Shown here piece by piece: positions 15,975 to 25,161 of a DNA stretch of 64,000 bases (position 1 is the first letter of the stretch; every line of letters starts with the position of its first letter). The position numbers and the translations under genes were made by a program. Source of the stretch: Flavobacteriaceae bacterium F08102. Lineage in GTDB: Bacteria; Bacteroidota; Bacteroidia; Flavobacteriales; Flavobacteriaceae. A model generated the notes under the pieces. The model was not told where the DNA came from, ran no database searches, and saw only the letters and a list, made by a program, of their open reading frames with translations. The stretch spans positions 248,001 through 312,000 of the forward strand of contig JALKAY010000003.1 in NCBI GenBank assembly GCA_023015935.1. The letters run 5' to 3'.

Positions 15975-16001
15975 AATAGCCAAAAAGTTTAAACTTAGTT
16001 G

Positions 16002-18062
16002 ATGACAGAATACAATATATTACATAAAAATGATGCCTTGAAGCTCCTGGATACAGCAAATCTCGATGGCTATTATGGACTTAGTTTTTTTCAAACAAGA
16101 GAAGGCCTTGGGTTTTTTGAATCTACAAACAAAGAGACTTTTAGTGTTGCGCTGATGAAAGGGAAACAGTTAATAGGTATAATTTCTGGAGTCATTGATA
16201 AGGAAAATGGGATAAAATCTTATGTTTCTCGAAGAGGAATTATTTATGGGGGGCCTGTATTGAGTTCTTCAATTTCTGCGGATGAAGTTGGGATGTTGTT
16301 AGATGCCTTGATTCAAAAAATTAAAAAGAAGGTAATCTATATTGAAACAAGAAATTTCTTCAACTACGATCAATTTAAAACCATTTTTAAAGAGCGGAAT
16401 TTCATTTATAATGCCCACTTAAATTTTCACTTAGCGACAAAAAGTGAAGAAGTTGTTCGAAAAAATATTAGCAAAAGTAAATTAAGGTATATTAAGCGAA
16501 GTTTAAAGGAAGGCGCTGAAATAGTTATTGCCGAGCATCGTGAAGAGATTGTTGCTTATTACGGTATTCTCCATAATTTATACAAGACTAAAGTTAAAAC
16601 ACCGCTACCTGACATTGATTTTTTTATAAAATTATTTGAGCAAAAATCAGTTAAGTTTATTTTAATTAAATTCAAGGACGAGATTTTGGGAGGGATCGTC
16701 TGTGCACTCTTTCCTAAAAGAGCTGTATACGAATGGTTCGTATGTGGAGAAGACCGAAAGTATAAAAATATTTATCCGAGTATTTTAGCTACTTGGGCAG
16801 GAATTGAATATGCATTTAAAAACGGCTATGAATATTTCGATTTTATGGGGGCAGGTAAGCCCGATGAAGAATATGGCGTTCGAGATTTTAAAAAATCATT
16901 TGGTGGAGAGTTAATAGAAAACGGAAGGTTTTTATATATTGCGAAGCCAAGGCTGTACAAATTAGGTAAAATTGCAGTTACTTTATTAAAGAAATCAACC
17001 AATTTTAAATTGAATACATCTAGTTTTAAACAGACGGATAAACCGATGGTTTCAAATCCGTCTTCTTTTAAAATTATTGACAATGTCAATGATATTGAAA
17101 GATCGGAATGGACTGAATTAAATAAAAATGCTGAAAATGGAACTGTTTTTCAATCACCAGAAATGTTTGATTTTTGGGGAACACAAAAAAATTCAAAACC
17201 ATTTATATGTGCAATAACGAATGAACAAGGTAACTTAATGGGACTTTGTTCCGGAGTTTTTATGTCAACCGGTAAGGGACTTAAAAAGGCAGTAAGTAGA
17301 AGGGCTATCGTATATGGAGGTCCAATTTTCAAAGAAGGTATAGCTAAAAAGGAGGTTGCTGAACAATTATTATCCGTGCTTCAGAAGTACGTAAAGAGAA
17401 AAGCCATCTATCTTGAAATTAGAAATTCGACGAGCTATGCAACCGTTAAAGATGTTTTTGAAAAAGATTTTAACTATATCCCCTATCAAAATTTTCTCAT
17501 AAATTTAGAGAGTGAAGAGGAGGTCTTTGCCAAATTTACTTCTGAAAAAAGAAGGCAGATACGAAGAGCATTACGCGAAGGCTGTGAAATTTCTTATGAA
17601 AATAGTGAAGAGAATGTACAGGGAGTGTATAGCGTACTTGCCAAAACATATAAAGAAAAAGTTAAAAAACCATTGCCAGAGATTCATTTTTTTAAGGAGT
17701 TGATACGTCAAGATTTCGCAAATATTATTGCGGTAATGTATCATGGTGAAATAATTGGTGGAGGTTTCTTTCTTTATAATGATAAAACAATCTATGACTG
17801 GTACCGATGTGGGAATGACATAACATTTAAACATCAATATCCAAGTACCTTGACTGCTTGGGGAGTCATGCTTTACGGATTGAATGCAAATATGAAGCAA
17901 TTCGATTTTATGGGGGCAGGTATTCGAGGTGAAGAATATGGTGTGAGAAAGTTTAAAGCGCAATTTGGAGGTGAGTTGGTAGAGTATGGGCGATATATGC
18001 AAATATTAAATCCTGTCCTTTATAAAATTGGGGTTTTTGGATTGAAATATTTGAAAAAATAA
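16002..18062 (+). CDS. Tandem FemAB/GNAT-like aminoacyltransferase (internal duplication)
   Basis: A 686-residue protein made of two homologous halves joined by a Ser/Thr-rich linker near residues 330-350. Half 1 has SRRGIIYGGPVLSS, YIETRNF and FDFMGAGKPDEEYGVRDFK; half 2 repeats these as SRRAIVYGGPIFKE, YLEIRNS and FDFMGAGIRGEEYGVRKFK, about 353 residues later. This pattern fits FemAB-related acyl/aminoacyltransferases, including those found with exopolysaccharide loci. FemA/B/X enzymes move amino acids from aminoacyl-tRNA to peptidoglycan precursors. The ATG at 16002 is preferred to a TTG at 15999. Each half alone would match one family member in length. Confidence 0.85.
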   Translation: MTEYNILHKNDALKLLDTANLDGYYGLSFFQTREGLGFFESTNKETFSVALMKGKQLIGIISGVIDKENGIKSYVSRRGIIYGGPVLSSSISADEVGMLLDALIQKIKKKVIYIETRNFFNYDQFKTIFKERNFIYNAHLNFHLATKSEEVVRKNISKSKLRYIKRSLKEGAEIVIAEHREEIVAYYGILHNLYKTKVKTPLPDIDFFIKLFEQKSVKFILIKFKDEILGGIVCALFPKRAVYEWFVCGEDRKYKNIYPSILATWAGIEYAFKNGYEYFDFMGAGKPDEEYGVRDFKKSFGGELIENGRFLYIAKPRLYKLGKIAVTLLKKSTNFKLNTSSFKQTDKPMVSNPSSFKIIDNVNDIERSEWTELNKNAENGTVFQSPEMFDFWGTQKNSKPFICAITNEQGNLMGLCSGVFMSTGKGLKKAVSRRAIVYGGPIFKEGIAKKEVAEQLLSVLQKYVKRKAIYLEIRNSTSYATVKDVFEKDFNYIPYQNFLINLESEEEVFAKFTSEKRRQIRRALREGCEISYENSEENVQGVYSVLAKTYKEKVKKPLPEIHFFKELIRQDFANIIAVMYHGEIIGGGFFLYNDKTIYDWYRCGNDITFKHQYPSTLTAWGVMLYGLNANMKQFDFMGAGIRGEEYGVRKFKAQFGGELVEYGRYMQILNPVLYKIGVFGLKYLKK

Positions 18063-19142: not shown

Positions 19143-19895
19143 ATGGACTTTACGGTAAAGATTTATAAAGAATTATTAAAGGCATTGCAAGAAAAAGAAT
19201 ATGTGTTTCAAACCTTCGAAGAATTTATACGCAATCCTGCTGAAAAAAGTATAGTGCTTCGTCATGACGTTGATTTGCTTCCATACAATTCGCTTCGGTT
19301 TGCAGAAATTCAGGCAGAAAATTATATAAAAGGCGTGTATTATTTTAGAGCAGTACCTGAAAGTTGGGATGAAGAAGTGATTCTTAAGATTAAAGAATTA
19401 GGCCATGAAATAGGATATCATTATGAGTGTATAACTACGTGTAAGGGAAACATGGAGGCGAGTATAAAAGATTTTAATGAAAATTTACAAGCGCTTAGAA
19501 AATTGGCTCCTGTTTCTACCATTTGTATGCACGGAAGTCCTGCGTCAAAATACGATTCGAAAGACTTATGGATTGATCATAGTTATCGCGATTTCGGAAT
19601 AATTGCCGAACCGTATTTTGATGTTGATTTTAAAAAAGTTTTTTATTTAACAGATACAGGCAGAAGATGGGATGGGCATAAAGTGAGTGTTCGTGATCGT
19701 GTTGAGAGTGGGTTTGATTTATCGTTTCATTCAACCAAAAATATTATAGCGTATCTAAAGACGAATGAGCTTCCTAACCAAATTATGTTTACCTTTCATC
19801 CACAACGGTGGAATGATAATGTTTATAGATGGACAAAAGAGTTAATTCTTCAGAATATTAAGAATGTGGTAAAGAAAGTTCTATACGTTAAATAA
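19143..19895 (+). CDS. Polysaccharide deacetylase-like (NodB-type) protein
   Basis: A 250-residue protein with carbohydrate esterase family 4 style motifs: SIVLRHDVDLLPYNS (metal-binding HD), GHEIGYHYE (His pair), ICMHGSPASKYD and FTFHPQRW near the end. It has no signal peptide, so it may act on a cytoplasmic, nucleotide- or lipid-linked sugar rather than on the finished polymer. Such proteins remove N-acetyl groups. As the last gene of the run, after FemAB-like and DUF354 genes, it could expose an amine for acylation; this link is inferred. Confidence 0.8.
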   Translation: MDFTVKIYKELLKALQEKEYVFQTFEEFIRNPAEKSIVLRHDVDLLPYNSLRFAEIQAENYIKGVYYFRAVPESWDEEVILKIKELGHEIGYHYECITTCKGNMEASIKDFNENLQALRKLAPVSTICMHGSPASKYDSKDLWIDHSYRDFGIIAEPYFDVDFKKVFYLTDTGRRWDGHKVSVRDRVESGFDLSFHSTKNIIAYLKTNELPNQIMFTFHPQRWNDNVYRWTKELILQNIKNVVKKVLYVK

Positions 19896-19948: not shown

Positions 19949-19980
19949 TTTGGTTTTGAATCAAATAATTCGTACGTTTG
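19949..19980 (+). promoter_or_regulatory. Promoter upstream of the sugar transferase
   Basis: TTTG at 19949-19952 and TACGTTTG at 19973-19980 are separated by 20 bases, matching the Bacteroidota housekeeping consensus (-33 TTTG, -7 TAnnTTTG). It lies after the last gene of the long operon and would give a leader of about 260 bases before the sugar transferase start. Confidence 0.6.
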
Positions 19981-20246
19981 CATAGCTATAAAAAGAAATG
20001 TTATTAAAATGAAGCTTATCAACCATAAGTCTAGCCTTAGTGCAGTTAACCCCATAGTTTCGCAAAGCCTTTTATTTAAGGGTTCACTGTCTCCGACACT
20101 TTCCACTTTTACGTTCGTAAGTGAAATTTTAAAATTTCAATTTAAAGCTAAATTTTCCTTTTATTATTAATAAATGTTGTCAATTAGATTTGGTGTAGAA
20201 CAAATCGTTATATGGACAATTGGTAATATTGGATAAAAATTTTGCT
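19981..20246 (+). promoter_or_regulatory. Long structured leader of the sugar transferase gene
   Basis: Between the promoter and the ATG at 20247 is a leader with a hairpin at 20104-20123 (CACTT-t-TACG, loop TT, CGTAAGTG). It runs directly into a perfect 16-base palindrome at 20123-20138 (GAAATTTTAAAATTTC). A second -7-like element, TAGATTTG, lies at 20185-20192. A 53-codon open frame (20009-20170) is present but has no recognisable product. The arrangement could be an attenuator or a protein-binding operator; the sequence does not decide which. Confidence 0.4.
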
Positions 20247-21629
20247 ATGATAAAACTTTACTCAACCCCTGAGGCACCTGATAATGACCAAGATTTGGTA
20301 TTAGATAAGGCGTCTGTGCTGAAAAAGATTGAAACTGATGATGTTGAACAAACAGATCACATCAAAGCACACCTACACGAGCGGATCCTACGATCCAAAA
20401 AAGCTGATAATTTTACATCTTTAGACCGAATACGAATAGTCGTAGACGGATTAATTGGTGATATTAGCGAAAGTGATTTATGTAAACGCGAAGGTATTTC
20501 TACCAAGGTATACCAGAATTGGAAAAAATCTTTTCTTGATTCATTTAAAGAATCTTCTGAGATTGATTTACTACAAAAAGCGGTTAGTACTAAGAATAAG
20601 AAACAAATCCTCAATGAAGTTGGGCTGTCTGCTTATCACTTTTTTAGTAAATACATCGATATTACAAATCCTAACAATCTCGTTGTTCCGAAAGGGAAAA
20701 TTCTTTCTGGATACAGTGATTTTTCAAAGATAGAAAATGTTGTTCTTTTAAATAAAGTCAATAATTTTCGTCAAATTAATAAGCAATTTGAAGAGGTAAA
20801 TTCAAAGTTGCAAAATGGAGGTATAATTTTAGGACGGTTTGAAACTTTTACAGCGCGATCTGAAAAGAGAGCTGTAAATAAAATTCCAGTAATCAACAGT
20901 CTTGTTAGAGGCTTTGATTTTGTGTTTCATCGAATTTTCCCAAAGCTGCCCTATTTAAAGAAATTTTATTTTTTCACTACCAAAGGAAAAAATCGATTAC
21001 TTTCTAAAGCGGAAGTTCTTGGAAGACTAGTTTCCTGTGGTTTTGATATTTTGGGATGTGAAGAAATAGGCGGATTATCCTATTTTGCTGCAGAAAAAAC
21101 GAAGTTACCTGATTTTAATATGAGTCCAAGTTACGGACCTTTATTCAAAATGAAAAGAGTAGGTAAGAATGGGAAAATTATTGGGGTTTATAAATTTAGA
21201 ACCATGCACCCCTATTCTGAATACTTACAAGATTATGTGTTAAAATTAAATGGTTACGCCGATTCAGGGAAGCCTGCAGATGATTTTAGGCTCGTTCCTT
21301 GGGGAAAGTTTTTACGTCGGTATTGGTTGGATGAATTACCCCAATTAATTAATGTATTAAAAGGAGAATTGAAAATTGTGGGCGTAAGACCAGTGTCTGA
21401 ACGGTATTTACAGGATATACCTGAGGATATTAGAGCGTTGCGATTAACTCAAAAACCTGGTTGTATCCCACCCTATGTGGCATTAGATAGAGCAGGAGCG
21501 GTTAACAGCGTTTTACAAGCAGAAAAAGAATACTTAGAAACAAAACTTAAGAATCCGTATTTTACTGATACCATATTCTTCTTTAGGGCGATATATAATA
21601 TTATATTTAAAAGTAAGCGAAGTGCTTAA
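20247..21629 (+). CDS. Priming sugar transferase with N-terminal transposase-like HTH domain
   Basis: A 460-residue protein. Residues about 58-100 (SLDRIRIVVDGLIGDISESD, LCKREGISTKVYQNWKKSF) look like the helix-turn-helix of IS3-family transposase OrfA. Residues about 150-290 resemble the extra domain of some Bacteroidota sugar transferases. Residues 295-455 form the bacterial sugar transferase core, with KMKRVGKNGKIIGVYKFRTM and the catalytic Asp-Glu in YWLDELPQL. Such enzymes load the first sugar-1-phosphate on undecaprenyl phosphate. No clear transmembrane segment precedes the core, unlike WcaJ/WbaP. An in-frame TTG at 20220 is an alternative start. Confidence 0.83.
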   Translation: MIKLYSTPEAPDNDQDLVLDKASVLKKIETDDVEQTDHIKAHLHERILRSKKADNFTSLDRIRIVVDGLIGDISESDLCKREGISTKVYQNWKKSFLDSFKESSEIDLLQKAVSTKNKKQILNEVGLSAYHFFSKYIDITNPNNLVVPKGKILSGYSDFSKIENVVLLNKVNNFRQINKQFEEVNSKLQNGGIILGRFETFTARSEKRAVNKIPVINSLVRGFDFVFHRIFPKLPYLKKFYFFTTKGKNRLLSKAEVLGRLVSCGFDILGCEEIGGLSYFAAEKTKLPDFNMSPSYGPLFKMKRVGKNGKIIGVYKFRTMHPYSEYLQDYVLKLNGYADSGKPADDFRLVPWGKFLRRYWLDELPQLINVLKGELKIVGVRPVSERYLQDIPEDIRALRLTQKPGCIPPYVALDRAGAVNSVLQAEKEYLETKLKNPYFTDTIFFFRAIYNIIFKSKRSA

Positions 21630-21929: not shown

Positions 21930-24344
21930 TTAAGCTTTCTTGAATTTCCACCATGCTTTTCTCTTTGATTTTTCAAAAGCAGTTCCATAGCCATAGCCAT
22001 ACCCATACCCTTGTTTGGAATCAATTCCATTAATTAAGATTGACATATTGGGGATTCTTCGGTCATCATAGATTGACTTAACATACTGTAACATACGTTT
22101 ATCTAAGAAGTTGGTTCGTACGATATAGATAAATGAATTTGCATACGAGCTTAATAGTAAGGTATCAGTAACCATGCTAAATGCGGCTGTATCAACGATG
22201 ATATAATCGTATTCTTCTTTAACTTTCTGAAATAGTTCCTTAACCCTAGGGTGCATTAAAAGTTCTGAAGGGTTTGGGGCTAAATCACCAGAAGAGATTA
22301 CAAATAAATTTTTATTTGATGGTACAGGATTTGTAATGCTTTCAACCGTAATCGATGGATTTATTATGAAATTGGTAACGCCTTTTTCTCCTCTGACATC
22401 TAGATAAGCCTCTATCTTAGGTGCACGGATGTCCATTCCTAATAACAGGGTCTTTTTTCCAGCATGCGCTAATGAAGTTGCTAGATTCGAGGCTACCATA
22501 GACTTTCCTTCATGTGCAATGGTAGACGTAATAAATATGGTTTTACCTTGGATTTTAGAATCTAAGACAAAGTTTAAGTTAGTTCGCAAAATTCGGAATG
22601 ATTCTGCGATTCCTGAATTGTCAGACTCAGTTATCAAATACCGTCCTTTAGTTTCTAATTTTGGAATATCTCCAATAATTGGAATATTTAAAATCTTTTC
22701 TACTTCTTGACGTGTGTGAATTTTGGTGTCTAATAAATCCCGAACATAGAGAATCGCAAAGGGAACAACGAGACCTAAGATAATGGCACTTATATAGCTC
22801 ATAAATCTATTAGGACCTGTAGGGGAGCTTCCACTCATTGCAGGATCGATAATAATTGCATTTGGATCAACGACCCCTAATGTAATTCCTGTTTCTTCTC
22901 TTTTCTGCAATAAATAAAGGAATAAATCCTCTTTAATTTTTTGTTGACGCGATATATCGCGATACTCACGTTCTTGTGTAGGGGTACTGTTGAGTTTATA
23001 ATTTATTTTTCCCGCTTGTCTATTTAATGAATTCAATGTGATTTGTTGACTTTCTTCTAAATTTTCTAAACCTAATTGAATATTGTCTTTAATATCCTTT
23101 AAGGCCTCGTCAAGTCGTACAATCGCAGGATTTTTCTCTTTAGCTTTAAGATTTAAGAGTCTTGTCCGTTCTTGTTGTATTTCGGTGTATTTGGAGATCG
23201 CTTCGTTGAGACTATTGTCTTGCGTAAGAATATTTCCAGGGATACTGGTTGTGTTATCTGCAGATTTGACATACTCCTTCATGTACCTTATTTTCTGTAA
23301 CTGCGCATCTGCTATGGCTTTTTGTCGATCTAATTCTTGACTAGCTTGCATGTTAATTCCCGTTTCAGATGCTTGATCAGAGAGTTGATACTTTTTCTTG
23401 AGGGATTCTGCTGATAAATCAATTTCGGTTAACTCTTCAGAAATTGCAATCAATCGATCGTTGACAAATTTGGCTGTATTACTCGAGAGTTCCTCTTTTA
23501 ACGCAACGGCCCGTTTATTGTATTGCCTAACCAGTTCATTTAAAAAATCTTCCGCTTTTCTCTTGTCTGTATCTGTTGCTTTAAGGCTTAATACGTTAGA
23601 ATATTTTGAAATAGGTTCTACAGTAAGATTATTAACATATACGTTTGTCATACCTTGAATAGAGGTAATCTTAACTAAAATGGATTCACCAATGAGCCCC
23701 GCAGATTTTAAATCAACACTAGGGGTTATAATTATGTCAGAGAAACTTGTTTTTAATTTTTCTCCAAATGCATATTGTTTATTAATAGTGTGATCTGCAT
23801 TAGAATACGTAAATTTGGATTCGGAATCAACGTGGATATAAAAAGTGGATCCGTAGGTATAGAGTACAGAATCAGGTATGAAAAAATTAATCTTTAACGG
23901 TGGATTTGTATAACGTTCATTTTCATAGAACTCAGTTGAAAAACCAAGATGATCATCGACAAATTTACTGATGGAATTTTTGTTTGTAAAAAATTGTACA
24001 TTAAATTTTAATGCTTCAATGGCTTTAGATACTAAACTTTTTGATGTTAAAATTTCAATTTCATCCTCAATATTATCATGGCTATTCCCCATCATACCTA
24101 GGTCTTGAAACACCGATAGGGTAGATTTGTCTGCACCCCCTTCATCTTTGATTTTAATGGAAGCTTCTGCCTCATAGATATCCCTGCTAAAATTTAAGTT
24201 CCAAAAAGTATTTAACAAAGACAATGTAATAGCCAATAAGAACCATTTCCAATATCCCAAATATTTATCTACAATGGATCTAAGGTCTAAATTACTCCCA
24301 TCGTTATGTTCCTCTTGCTGACTTAATTTTTTGCTGAATTCCAT
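21930..24344 (-). CDS. wzc: Wzc-like tyrosine kinase / polysaccharide copolymerase
   Basis: An 804-residue inner-membrane protein that controls chain length and export. A Wzz domain lies near the N-terminus with TM1 around residues 35-53, a long periplasmic coiled-coil region follows (about 270-470), and TM2 lies near 512-533 (FMSYISAIILGLVVPFAILY). The cytoplasmic BY-kinase has Walker A in ITSTIAHEGKSMVASNLA (about 611), Walker A' in LLGMDIRAPK and Walker B in YIIVDTAAF. The C-terminal tyrosine cluster is QGYGYGYGYGTAFEK, presumably the autophosphorylation site. It is 22 bases downstream of the Wza-like gene on the same strand. Confidence 0.95.
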   Translation of the reverse strand: MEFSKKLSQQEEHNDGSNLDLRSIVDKYLGYWKWFLLAITLSLLNTFWNLNFSRDIYEAEASIKIKDEGGADKSTLSVFQDLGMMGNSHDNIEDEIEILTSKSLVSKAIEALKFNVQFFTNKNSISKFVDDHLGFSTEFYENERYTNPPLKINFFIPDSVLYTYGSTFYIHVDSESKFTYSNADHTINKQYAFGEKLKTSFSDIIITPSVDLKSAGLIGESILVKITSIQGMTNVYVNNLTVEPISKYSNVLSLKATDTDKRKAEDFLNELVRQYNKRAVALKEELSSNTAKFVNDRLIAISEELTEIDLSAESLKKKYQLSDQASETGINMQASQELDRQKAIADAQLQKIRYMKEYVKSADNTTSIPGNILTQDNSLNEAISKYTEIQQERTRLLNLKAKEKNPAIVRLDEALKDIKDNIQLGLENLEESQQITLNSLNRQAGKINYKLNSTPTQEREYRDISRQQKIKEDLFLYLLQKREETGITLGVVDPNAIIIDPAMSGSSPTGPNRFMSYISAIILGLVVPFAILYVRDLLDTKIHTRQEVEKILNIPIIGDIPKLETKGRYLITESDNSGIAESFRILRTNLNFVLDSKIQGKTIFITSTIAHEGKSMVASNLATSLAHAGKKTLLLGMDIRAPKIEAYLDVRGEKGVTNFIINPSITVESITNPVPSNKNLFVISSGDLAPNPSELLMHPRVKELFQKVKEEYDYIIVDTAAFSMVTDTLLLSSYANSFIYIVRTNFLDKRMLQYVKSIYDDRRIPNMSILINGIDSKQGYGYGYGYGTAFEKSKRKAWWKFKKA
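21985..22010 (-). repeat. Hexanucleotide tandem repeat encoding the Wzc Gly-Tyr tail
   Basis: On the plus strand four near-identical six-base units (CCATAG, CCATAG, CCATAC, CCATAC) run in tandem. On the coding strand they specify the repeated Gly-Tyr pairs at the C-terminus of the kinase. Slippage by whole units would change the number of tyrosines without a frameshift. Confidence 0.75.
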
Positions 24345-24366: not shown

Positions 24367-25161
24367 TTATCGAGTGATATTAATTAATAAAGCAGATACT
24401 GTAACTAAGGTTGATATTAGGCTAAGTGTAGTAGATGTATTTGGCCCTATATTGGATGATTTTACACGCGAATTATTTGGTTCAACATAGATGTAATCAT
24501 TTTGTGATAAATAATATACGGGTGAGTTAAATACGGCCTCTGACGTTAAATCTACACGATAATACACTTTTTTATCACCCTCTTCTCTTACCACAAGGAC
24601 ATTATCTCTTCTACCTTGAATAGTTAAATCCCCGGCCAAGCCTAAAGCTTCTAGCAAGGTAATTCGTTCATTTTCAATTTTAAATACCCCTGGGTTTCTT
24701 ACCTCCCCTTGTACGGTTACTTTAAAATTTACGATTCGAATTAATACCATGGGGTTCTCTAAAAAATCTTCAAGTCTAGTTTTAATGGTTTCTGTAGCTT
24801 GGGTTCTTGTTAAGCCGGCTAATTTTAATTTTCCAAGCTCTGGAAAATCAATATTTCCGTCAGGATCTACTAAATAGGATTGTGTGGTGGTTCTACCAAT
24901 ATTACCGTATTCATCTGAAAAGGTAACGGTGTTTAAATTGTACGGTTTTACCAAGTCAGAATCTGCACCTGTCACAATGATGGTTAATCGATCGTCAGGT
25001 TTTATGGTAGGGCTATAATTTGAAATAGGTCGGCTCATTCCTACCATGTCAACATCTTGAAAATAGACGATATCTTGTCTTGTACCACAAGACGAAATAA
25101 ACAGCGTCAAAATCATCAAGATAGAAAGCTTTGAAAGGGTTGATTTGATAGAGTTATTCAT
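24367..25161 (-). CDS. wza: Wza-like polysaccharide export lipoprotein
   Basis: A 264-residue outer-membrane export protein. A lipoprotein signal peptide ends at the lipobox LFISSCGTRQD (Cys about 27). The polysaccharide export domain follows (SPTIKPDDRLTIIVTGADSDLV, then PDGNIDFPELGKLKLAGLTR) and an SLBB domain (KVTVQGEVRNPGVFKIENERITLLEALGLAGDL). A hydrophobic C-terminal segment (TTLSLISTLVTVSALLINI) could be the outer-membrane helix. Much shorter than E. coli Wza (379 residues), but normal for Bacteroidota. Wzc follows after 22 bases. Confidence 0.93.
   Translation of the reverse strand: MNNSIKSTLSKLSILMILTLFISSCGTRQDIVYFQDVDMVGMSRPISNYSPTIKPDDRLTIIVTGADSDLVKPYNLNTVTFSDEYGNIGRTTTQSYLVDPDGNIDFPELGKLKLAGLTRTQATETIKTRLEDFLENPMVLIRIVNFKVTVQGEVRNPGVFKIENERITLLEALGLAGDLTIQGRRDNVLVVREEGDKKVYYRVDLTSEAVFNSPVYYLSQNDYIYVEPNNSRVKSSNIGPNTSTTLSLISTLVTVSALLINITR

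Follow-up and report, generated by a model that had tools for sequence, protein, structure and literature searches.

Known classes of monotopic phosphoglycosyl transferases (PGTs) have been described around a catalytic core with a re-entrant helix (PMC10942596). The large members WbaP, WcaJ and EpsZ are associated with Wzx/Wzy-type exopolysaccharide loci and carry additional parts ahead of the core, namely an N-terminal four-helix membrane bundle and a CoA_binding_3 domain (PF13727). In Myxococcus xanthus, the response regulator EpsW activates the PGT EpsZ, probably through its dimer (PMC12802240).

The gene described here belongs to the genus Aureibaculum and lies within an exopolysaccharide gene locus in the window, the whole 64,000-nucleotide stretch of DNA from Flavobacteriaceae bacterium F08102 that was analysed. 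Its product has the Bac_transf core and Asp-Glu pair of the monotopic PGT superfamily, without the re-entrant helix. With the large PGTs it has in common the fold of the core, the catalytic pair, a Wzx/Wzy-type exopolysaccharide locus and an extra domain ahead of the core; it differs from them in having a methyltransferase fold in the stead of CoA_binding_3, in lacking both the four-helix bundle and the re-entrant helix, and in the addition of a helix-turn-helix (HTH). The latter has the sequence pattern and predicted three-helix fold of IS3-family OrfA (HTH_Tnp_1, PF01527) but, unlike OrfA, is joined to an enzyme, has no OrfB adjoining it and has largely lost the basic DNA-contact residues. 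The reading favoured here, to which a probability of roughly 0.6 is given, is that this HTH was joined from an IS3-type OrfA in an ancestor and domesticated as a protein-contact module of a priming PGT. A search of the open-access literature, the coverage of which leaves subscription journals largely outside, turned up no description of an HTH-PGT fusion.

The fusion protein and its locus

The gene and its domains are arranged as follows (window positions).

20247..21629, + strand: HTH-PGT fusion gene, 460 aa; an ORF with full-length relatives in most congeners, presumptive priming sugar transferase
20388..20555, + strand: IS3 OrfA-type HTH, residues 48-103, with helices 58-70, 75-82 and 86-103; HTH_Tnp_1 in relatives, OrfA homologues, AlphaFold
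20598..21107, + strand: truncated class I methyltransferase-fold domain, residues 118-287; structure match to 3cc8
20886..20981, + strand: helix pair, residues 214-245, with conserved R229, P232 and K233; model, conservation, hydrophobicity
21138..21614, + strand: monotopic PGT catalytic core, residues 298-456; Bac_transf, WbaP and PglC structure matches
21330..21335, + strand: catalytic pair Asp362-Glu363; invariant in 78 homologues, aligned to the WbaP/PglC core

The frame starts with the ATG at 20247 and its stop codon ends at 21629, exactly where the preliminary description had placed a fusion of a transposase-type HTH to a sugar transferase; the product has 460 residues. The order from N- to C-terminus is HTH (56-103), methyltransferase-fold domain (about 118-287) and PGT core (298-456). 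Bac_transf (PF02397) matches residues 298-431 with an E value of 7.5e-26, beginning at position 35 of the 179 in the profile, and the membrane-helix part is therefore absent. Absence of a re-entrant membrane helix before the core is indicated by the Bac_transf profile, by hydropathy (the peak 19-residue mean is 1.12 in the 75 residues ahead of the core motif) and by the AlphaFold model. The modelled core matches the structures of WbaP (Z 13.2, rmsd 1.9) and PglC (Z 11.6). Thus, a full sugar transferase core with its Asp-Glu pair and no membrane segment ahead of it, as initially described, is what was found. There is no hydrophobic stretch in the protein that could correspond to an N-terminal membrane bundle; CoA_binding_3 matches in this genome fall on C11 and C50, and none on the fusion protein.

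The region between the HTH and the core went unnoticed in the preliminary description. In the AlphaFold model it folds like a class I methyltransferase (3cc8, Z 12.7, rmsd 3.2, 131 aligned residues, with many further matches) and is no mere linker. The glycine-rich SAM motif I (G.G.G or [DEC].G.G) occurs in one of 78 aligned rows, which is not that of the window protein. Since the motif is missing from the other 77, this domain is probably not a methyltransferase. Its helix pair at 214-245 is, by the model, a candidate membrane-contact element. The protein represents an unusual PGT subfamily, the core of which is devoid of the re-entrant helix and preceded by a truncated methyltransferase fold. 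It is regarded as a soluble-looking priming PGT, presumably catalysing the priming step.

The following genes flank the fusion gene.

19143..19895, + strand: upstream neighbour; adjoins the PGT gene in many relatives (synteny)
21930..24344, - strand: Wzc-type tyrosine kinase / chain length determinant, convergent neighbour; NCBIfam eps_fam above cut-off
24367..25161, - strand: Wza-type polysaccharide export protein; NCBIfam export families, under their cut-offs

The upstream neighbour has no NCBIfam match; its product is presumably polysaccharide deacetylase-like. The order PGT-wza-wzc is found in many relatives. Only two Bac_transf genes are present in the genome, and the other one lies on contig C11, ruling out a second sugar transferase at the locus; genes of the WecA/MraY type are located on C4 and C50. 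From this arrangement, the fusion gene would encode the priming PGT of the surrounding exopolysaccharide locus. Further upstream, positions 15999-18062 encode a 687-aa FemAB-like protein, seemingly one domain repeated twice in tandem (SRRGIIYGGP / SRRAIVYGGP).

Kinship and descent of the helix-turn-helix

Pfam HTH_Tnp_1 matches residues 56-103 of the window protein with an E value of 0.014, under the curated cut-off. The same domain was found in 10 of the 14 members of the alignment (best E 8.7e-5), and the cut-off is passed, with up to 37.9 bits, by seven two-HTH relatives. An AlphaFold model built with 14 close sequences was weak in the core and was replaced by one using 78 homologues; in the latter, three helices span residues 58-70, 75-82 and 86-124, and the block-mean pLDDT is about 90-96 across residues 51-100. 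When a profile of the fused HTHs was searched against 149 Flavobacteriaceae genomes, it retrieved stand-alone OrfA proteins of about 117 aa (E 3e-14 to 7e-11). These adjoin an OrfB transposase, of which one was run against the NCBI IS3 model and passed it. Apart from the fusions themselves, the nearest kin of the HTH in the profile search are thus OrfA proteins of IS3-type insertion sequences. The profile matches to OrfA, together with relatives scoring above the Pfam cut-off, indicate a kinship to IS3-type OrfA that goes beyond general HTH likeness, and bear out the initial reading of residues 58-100 or so. With a joint profile run on 345 genomes of the class, the matches listed were short frames or fragments of OrfA size and two Aureibaculum PGT fusions, the one exception being a 348-aa frame from the same genome as the window. 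That frame aside, no other enzyme with an OrfA-type HTH was among the matches listed from these genomes. Compared with solved structures by sequence, the HTH profile gave no credible match; a fold search with the full model returned matches to its methyltransferase and PGT domains, which filled the list.

A scan of bacterial genomes yielded 497 relatives of the protein, the best 80 of which were studied. HTH-bearing full-length relatives, 60-67% identical to the window protein, are present in most congeners examined; the assignment to Aureibaculum comes from named records (A. marinum, A. flavum, A. luteum). The fusion thus recurs in most of the genus, and recurrence, together with a confident HTH match, was what the preliminary description had named as support. 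Among these 80, the N-terminus differs: some have no addition, whereas others carry a hydrophobic membrane domain, a receiver domain, a single HTH or a tandem pair of HTHs. The HTH is kept in some twenty genes and is doubled in eight related ones, two of them in Lutimonas; the two-HTH genes include those of Lutimonas halocynthiae and L. saemankumensis. One genome bin (CSMAG_104) has two such genes on separate contigs (L077 and L087). Hydrophobic multi-helix domains are found in L041-L049, L110, L111, L122 and L131, from Bacteroidota, Calditrichota and Fidelibacterota records; where tested, these members still lack the re-entrant helix before the core. In a Bacteroidales member of the same subfamily (L109:9590-11026), the N-terminal domain is a response-regulator receiver (PF00072, E 8.8e-21), that is, a phosphorelay-type input fused to the priming enzyme.

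Fourteen HTH-less relatives start at the residue aligned with residue 117 of the window protein, and the HTH part therefore looks as if it had been added ahead of a pre-existing enzyme. In a tree of the 300 residues common to all, the HTH-bearing genes form two neighbouring groups. An approximately unbiased (AU) test did not reject a single clade of HTH-bearing genes (p-AU 0.82), which is compatible with the domain having been acquired once. One Aureibaculum congener carries a gene without the HTH (L078, the same gene as L013) that is placed among the HTH-bearing genes; its condition would most simply be explained by loss. According to the reading favoured here, an IS3-type OrfA HTH would have been joined to the N-terminus of the enzyme in an ancestor of a marine group within Flavobacteriaceae that includes Aureibaculum and Lutimonas. 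The added part would comprise residues 1 to about 117, and the transfer would have run from the insertion sequence to the enzyme.

Selection, DNA-contact residues and the upstream leader

In four close pairs of genes, the ratio dN/dS for the HTH is 0.06, 0.09, 0.15 and 0.45; the remainder of the N-terminus (residues 1 to about 50) evolves faster (0.35-0.62). Judged by these ratios, the HTH is held by purifying selection. The fold pattern is kept in 27 fused HTHs. By contrast, the basic arm, the Lys or Arg before the Trp of helix 3 (the recognition helix) and the KKRL tail, all of which vary little or not at all among 21 OrfA proteins, are largely missing from these 27. The Lys or Arg before the Trp is present in 6 of 27 fused HTHs versus 21 of 21 OrfA proteins (Fisher p 1.7e-8, a value that overstates independence because the sequences are related), and the mean net charge is about 0 (-0.3 to -0.6 by group) as against +5.1 in OrfA. 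The Trp itself is replaced by Phe or Leu in 3 of 10 Aureibaculum copies, but a Lys immediately after its position is found in all 10 copies compared. In IS2, the residue that immediately follows W49, R50, is of importance for binding to DNA (PMC3219604).

The segment ahead of the gene contains the following elements.

19973..19997, + strand: -7 promoter-like box with the AGCTATAAAAAGAA leader motif; same motif before HTH-clade PGT genes
20009..20170, + strand: small ORF of the leader, 53 codons; counterparts of like size and location in the other Aureibaculum-type leaders
20015..20029, + strand: inverted repeat CTTAT-CAACC-ATAAG; read from the sequence, with palindromes at the same place in several congeners

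The motif consists of a -7 box, the above element in Aureibaculum and usually CCCCT, which is lacking in the window. It precedes nearly all HTH-clade genes examined, including the HTH-less L078. The conserved promoter-leader as a whole extends over 19973-20246, with counterparts at L068:9593, L070:9581, L079:9534 and others. Leader ORFs in Aureibaculum have 53-76 codons; in L078 and some two-HTH genes, no ORF of at least 25 codons is found at the same place. In two close pairs, dS in the leader ORF is 0.16-0.28, compared with 0.63-1.2 in the middle domain and core, suggesting that the nucleotide sequence is constrained; in one pair, an equally low value (0.14) applies to the first 50 codons. 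Single leader sequences fold into small hairpins, and searches of the leaders yielded no Rfam match and no RNAalifold consensus. Terminal repeats of a related IS, read by eye from its flanks (automated repeat detection reported none), were considered as possible binding sites and rejected: most of the best matches to them in the leaders were no better than in shuffled sequences, and the one weak match in the window leader was equalled by 1 of 40 shuffles, among 40 tests. A similar motif lies before L194 and L204 (a GT4-like gene in two congeners), before L187 (an acyltransferase-like gene) and at L079:4117-4168; the genes preceded by it include one for a PelF-like glycosyltransferase and a 1064-aa gene of the same locus in Lutimonas halocynthiae. 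Several further matches to the pattern look like chance. The motif is possibly the common leader of a small regulon.

Role of the captured domain

The preliminary description had put forward that DNA binding by the HTH might couple the priming step to gene control, protein contacts being its alternative. The evidence leans against DNA binding of the transposase type, as far as residue composition can indicate: only 6 of 27 fused HTHs have the Lys or Arg before the Trp, their charge is about nil and the leaders have no conspicuous IS-end site. Loss of the basic contact residues and of charge makes the HTH more likely a regulatory or assembly module than a DNA-binding controller, and protein contacts fit better than a DNA-binding coupling. 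The joined HTH has retained its predicted fold while losing most of its basic DNA-contact surface, and in one branch it occurs in tandem. Most probably it would set the assembly or activity of the priming enzyme, by self-association or by docking to a partner, for instance the Wzc kinase or a regulator. The position that it occupies is that of the receiver domain in a distant relative and of membrane domains in others. An N-terminal regulatory module is plausible given the precedent of EpsW and EpsZ and the receiver domain at the same place in L109. The idea is likewise that of a small cytoplasmic module controlling a priming PGT after translation, although EpsW is a separate single-domain protein, acts on a large PGT and has no HTH (PMC12802240). 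This proposal draws on the OrfA homology, the HTH model, the PGT fold with its invariant Asp-Glu pair, the AU test, the dN/dS values, the starts at residue 117, the loss of charge, L109, the EpsW-EpsZ pair, the PGT-wza-wzc synteny and the presence of a sole Bac_transf gene in the locus. Against it, the conserved leader and the Lys following the helix-3 Trp position would fit nucleic-acid binding, and the L078 lineage manages without the HTH.

The main rival, though an unlikely one, is a trigger enzyme, in which the HTH would bind DNA or RNA with an altered specificity and control its own leader, perhaps also other exopolysaccharide genes, thereby coupling priming to transcription. The conserved promoter-leader before HTH-clade genes, with the low dS of its ORF, would provide a target, as would the motif before the GT4-like gene of two congeners; the Lys conserved in all ten Aureibaculum copies occupies the place of the DNA-binding R50 of IS2, and tandem HTHs could read a longer site. 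These points are countered by the loss of charge, basic arm, Lys or Arg and KKRL tail, by the Phe or Leu in place of the Trp in three of those ten copies, by persistence of the leader motif in the HTH-less L078 and by the lack of an outstanding IS-end site in the leaders. Were the trigger-enzyme reading true, a single polypeptide would both open polysaccharide synthesis and control the locus, its targets being the conserved leaders, and Lutimonas-like bacteria would have a tandem-HTH version.

A passive HTH, left behind by an IS insertion and tolerated as an N-terminal extension without function, seems improbable. Its absence from the L078 lineage and the faster evolution of residues 1 to about 50 would be in line with such a remnant, but the HTH itself has a dN/dS of 0.06-0.15 for three gene pairs and 0.45 for the fourth, and is kept in some twenty genes and doubled in eight. 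Convergence or chance as the source of the OrfA likeness, the N-terminal helices being a different domain, is strongly disfavoured and close to negligible: the window protein falls under the Pfam cut-off and no solved structure is matched by sequence, but profile E values are as low as 3e-14 against OrfA genes adjoining OrfB, relatives exceed the cut-off, and the pattern common to fused HTHs and OrfA runs across the whole domain.

The fate usually ascribed to the DNA-binding domains of transposases is reuse in DNA-binding regulators. In the present case, such a domain has been joined to a biosynthetic enzyme, is held by selection, occurs in tandem in a neighbouring branch and is absent in one lineage, which provides a small comparative series for testing the role of a captured HTH once its DNA-contact residues erode. 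The PGT subfamily itself poses the question of how a core without a re-entrant helix reaches undecaprenyl phosphate. The variety of its N-terminal modules, from membrane and receiver domains to single or paired HTHs, suggests that priming is a site at which new regulatory inputs are plugged in.
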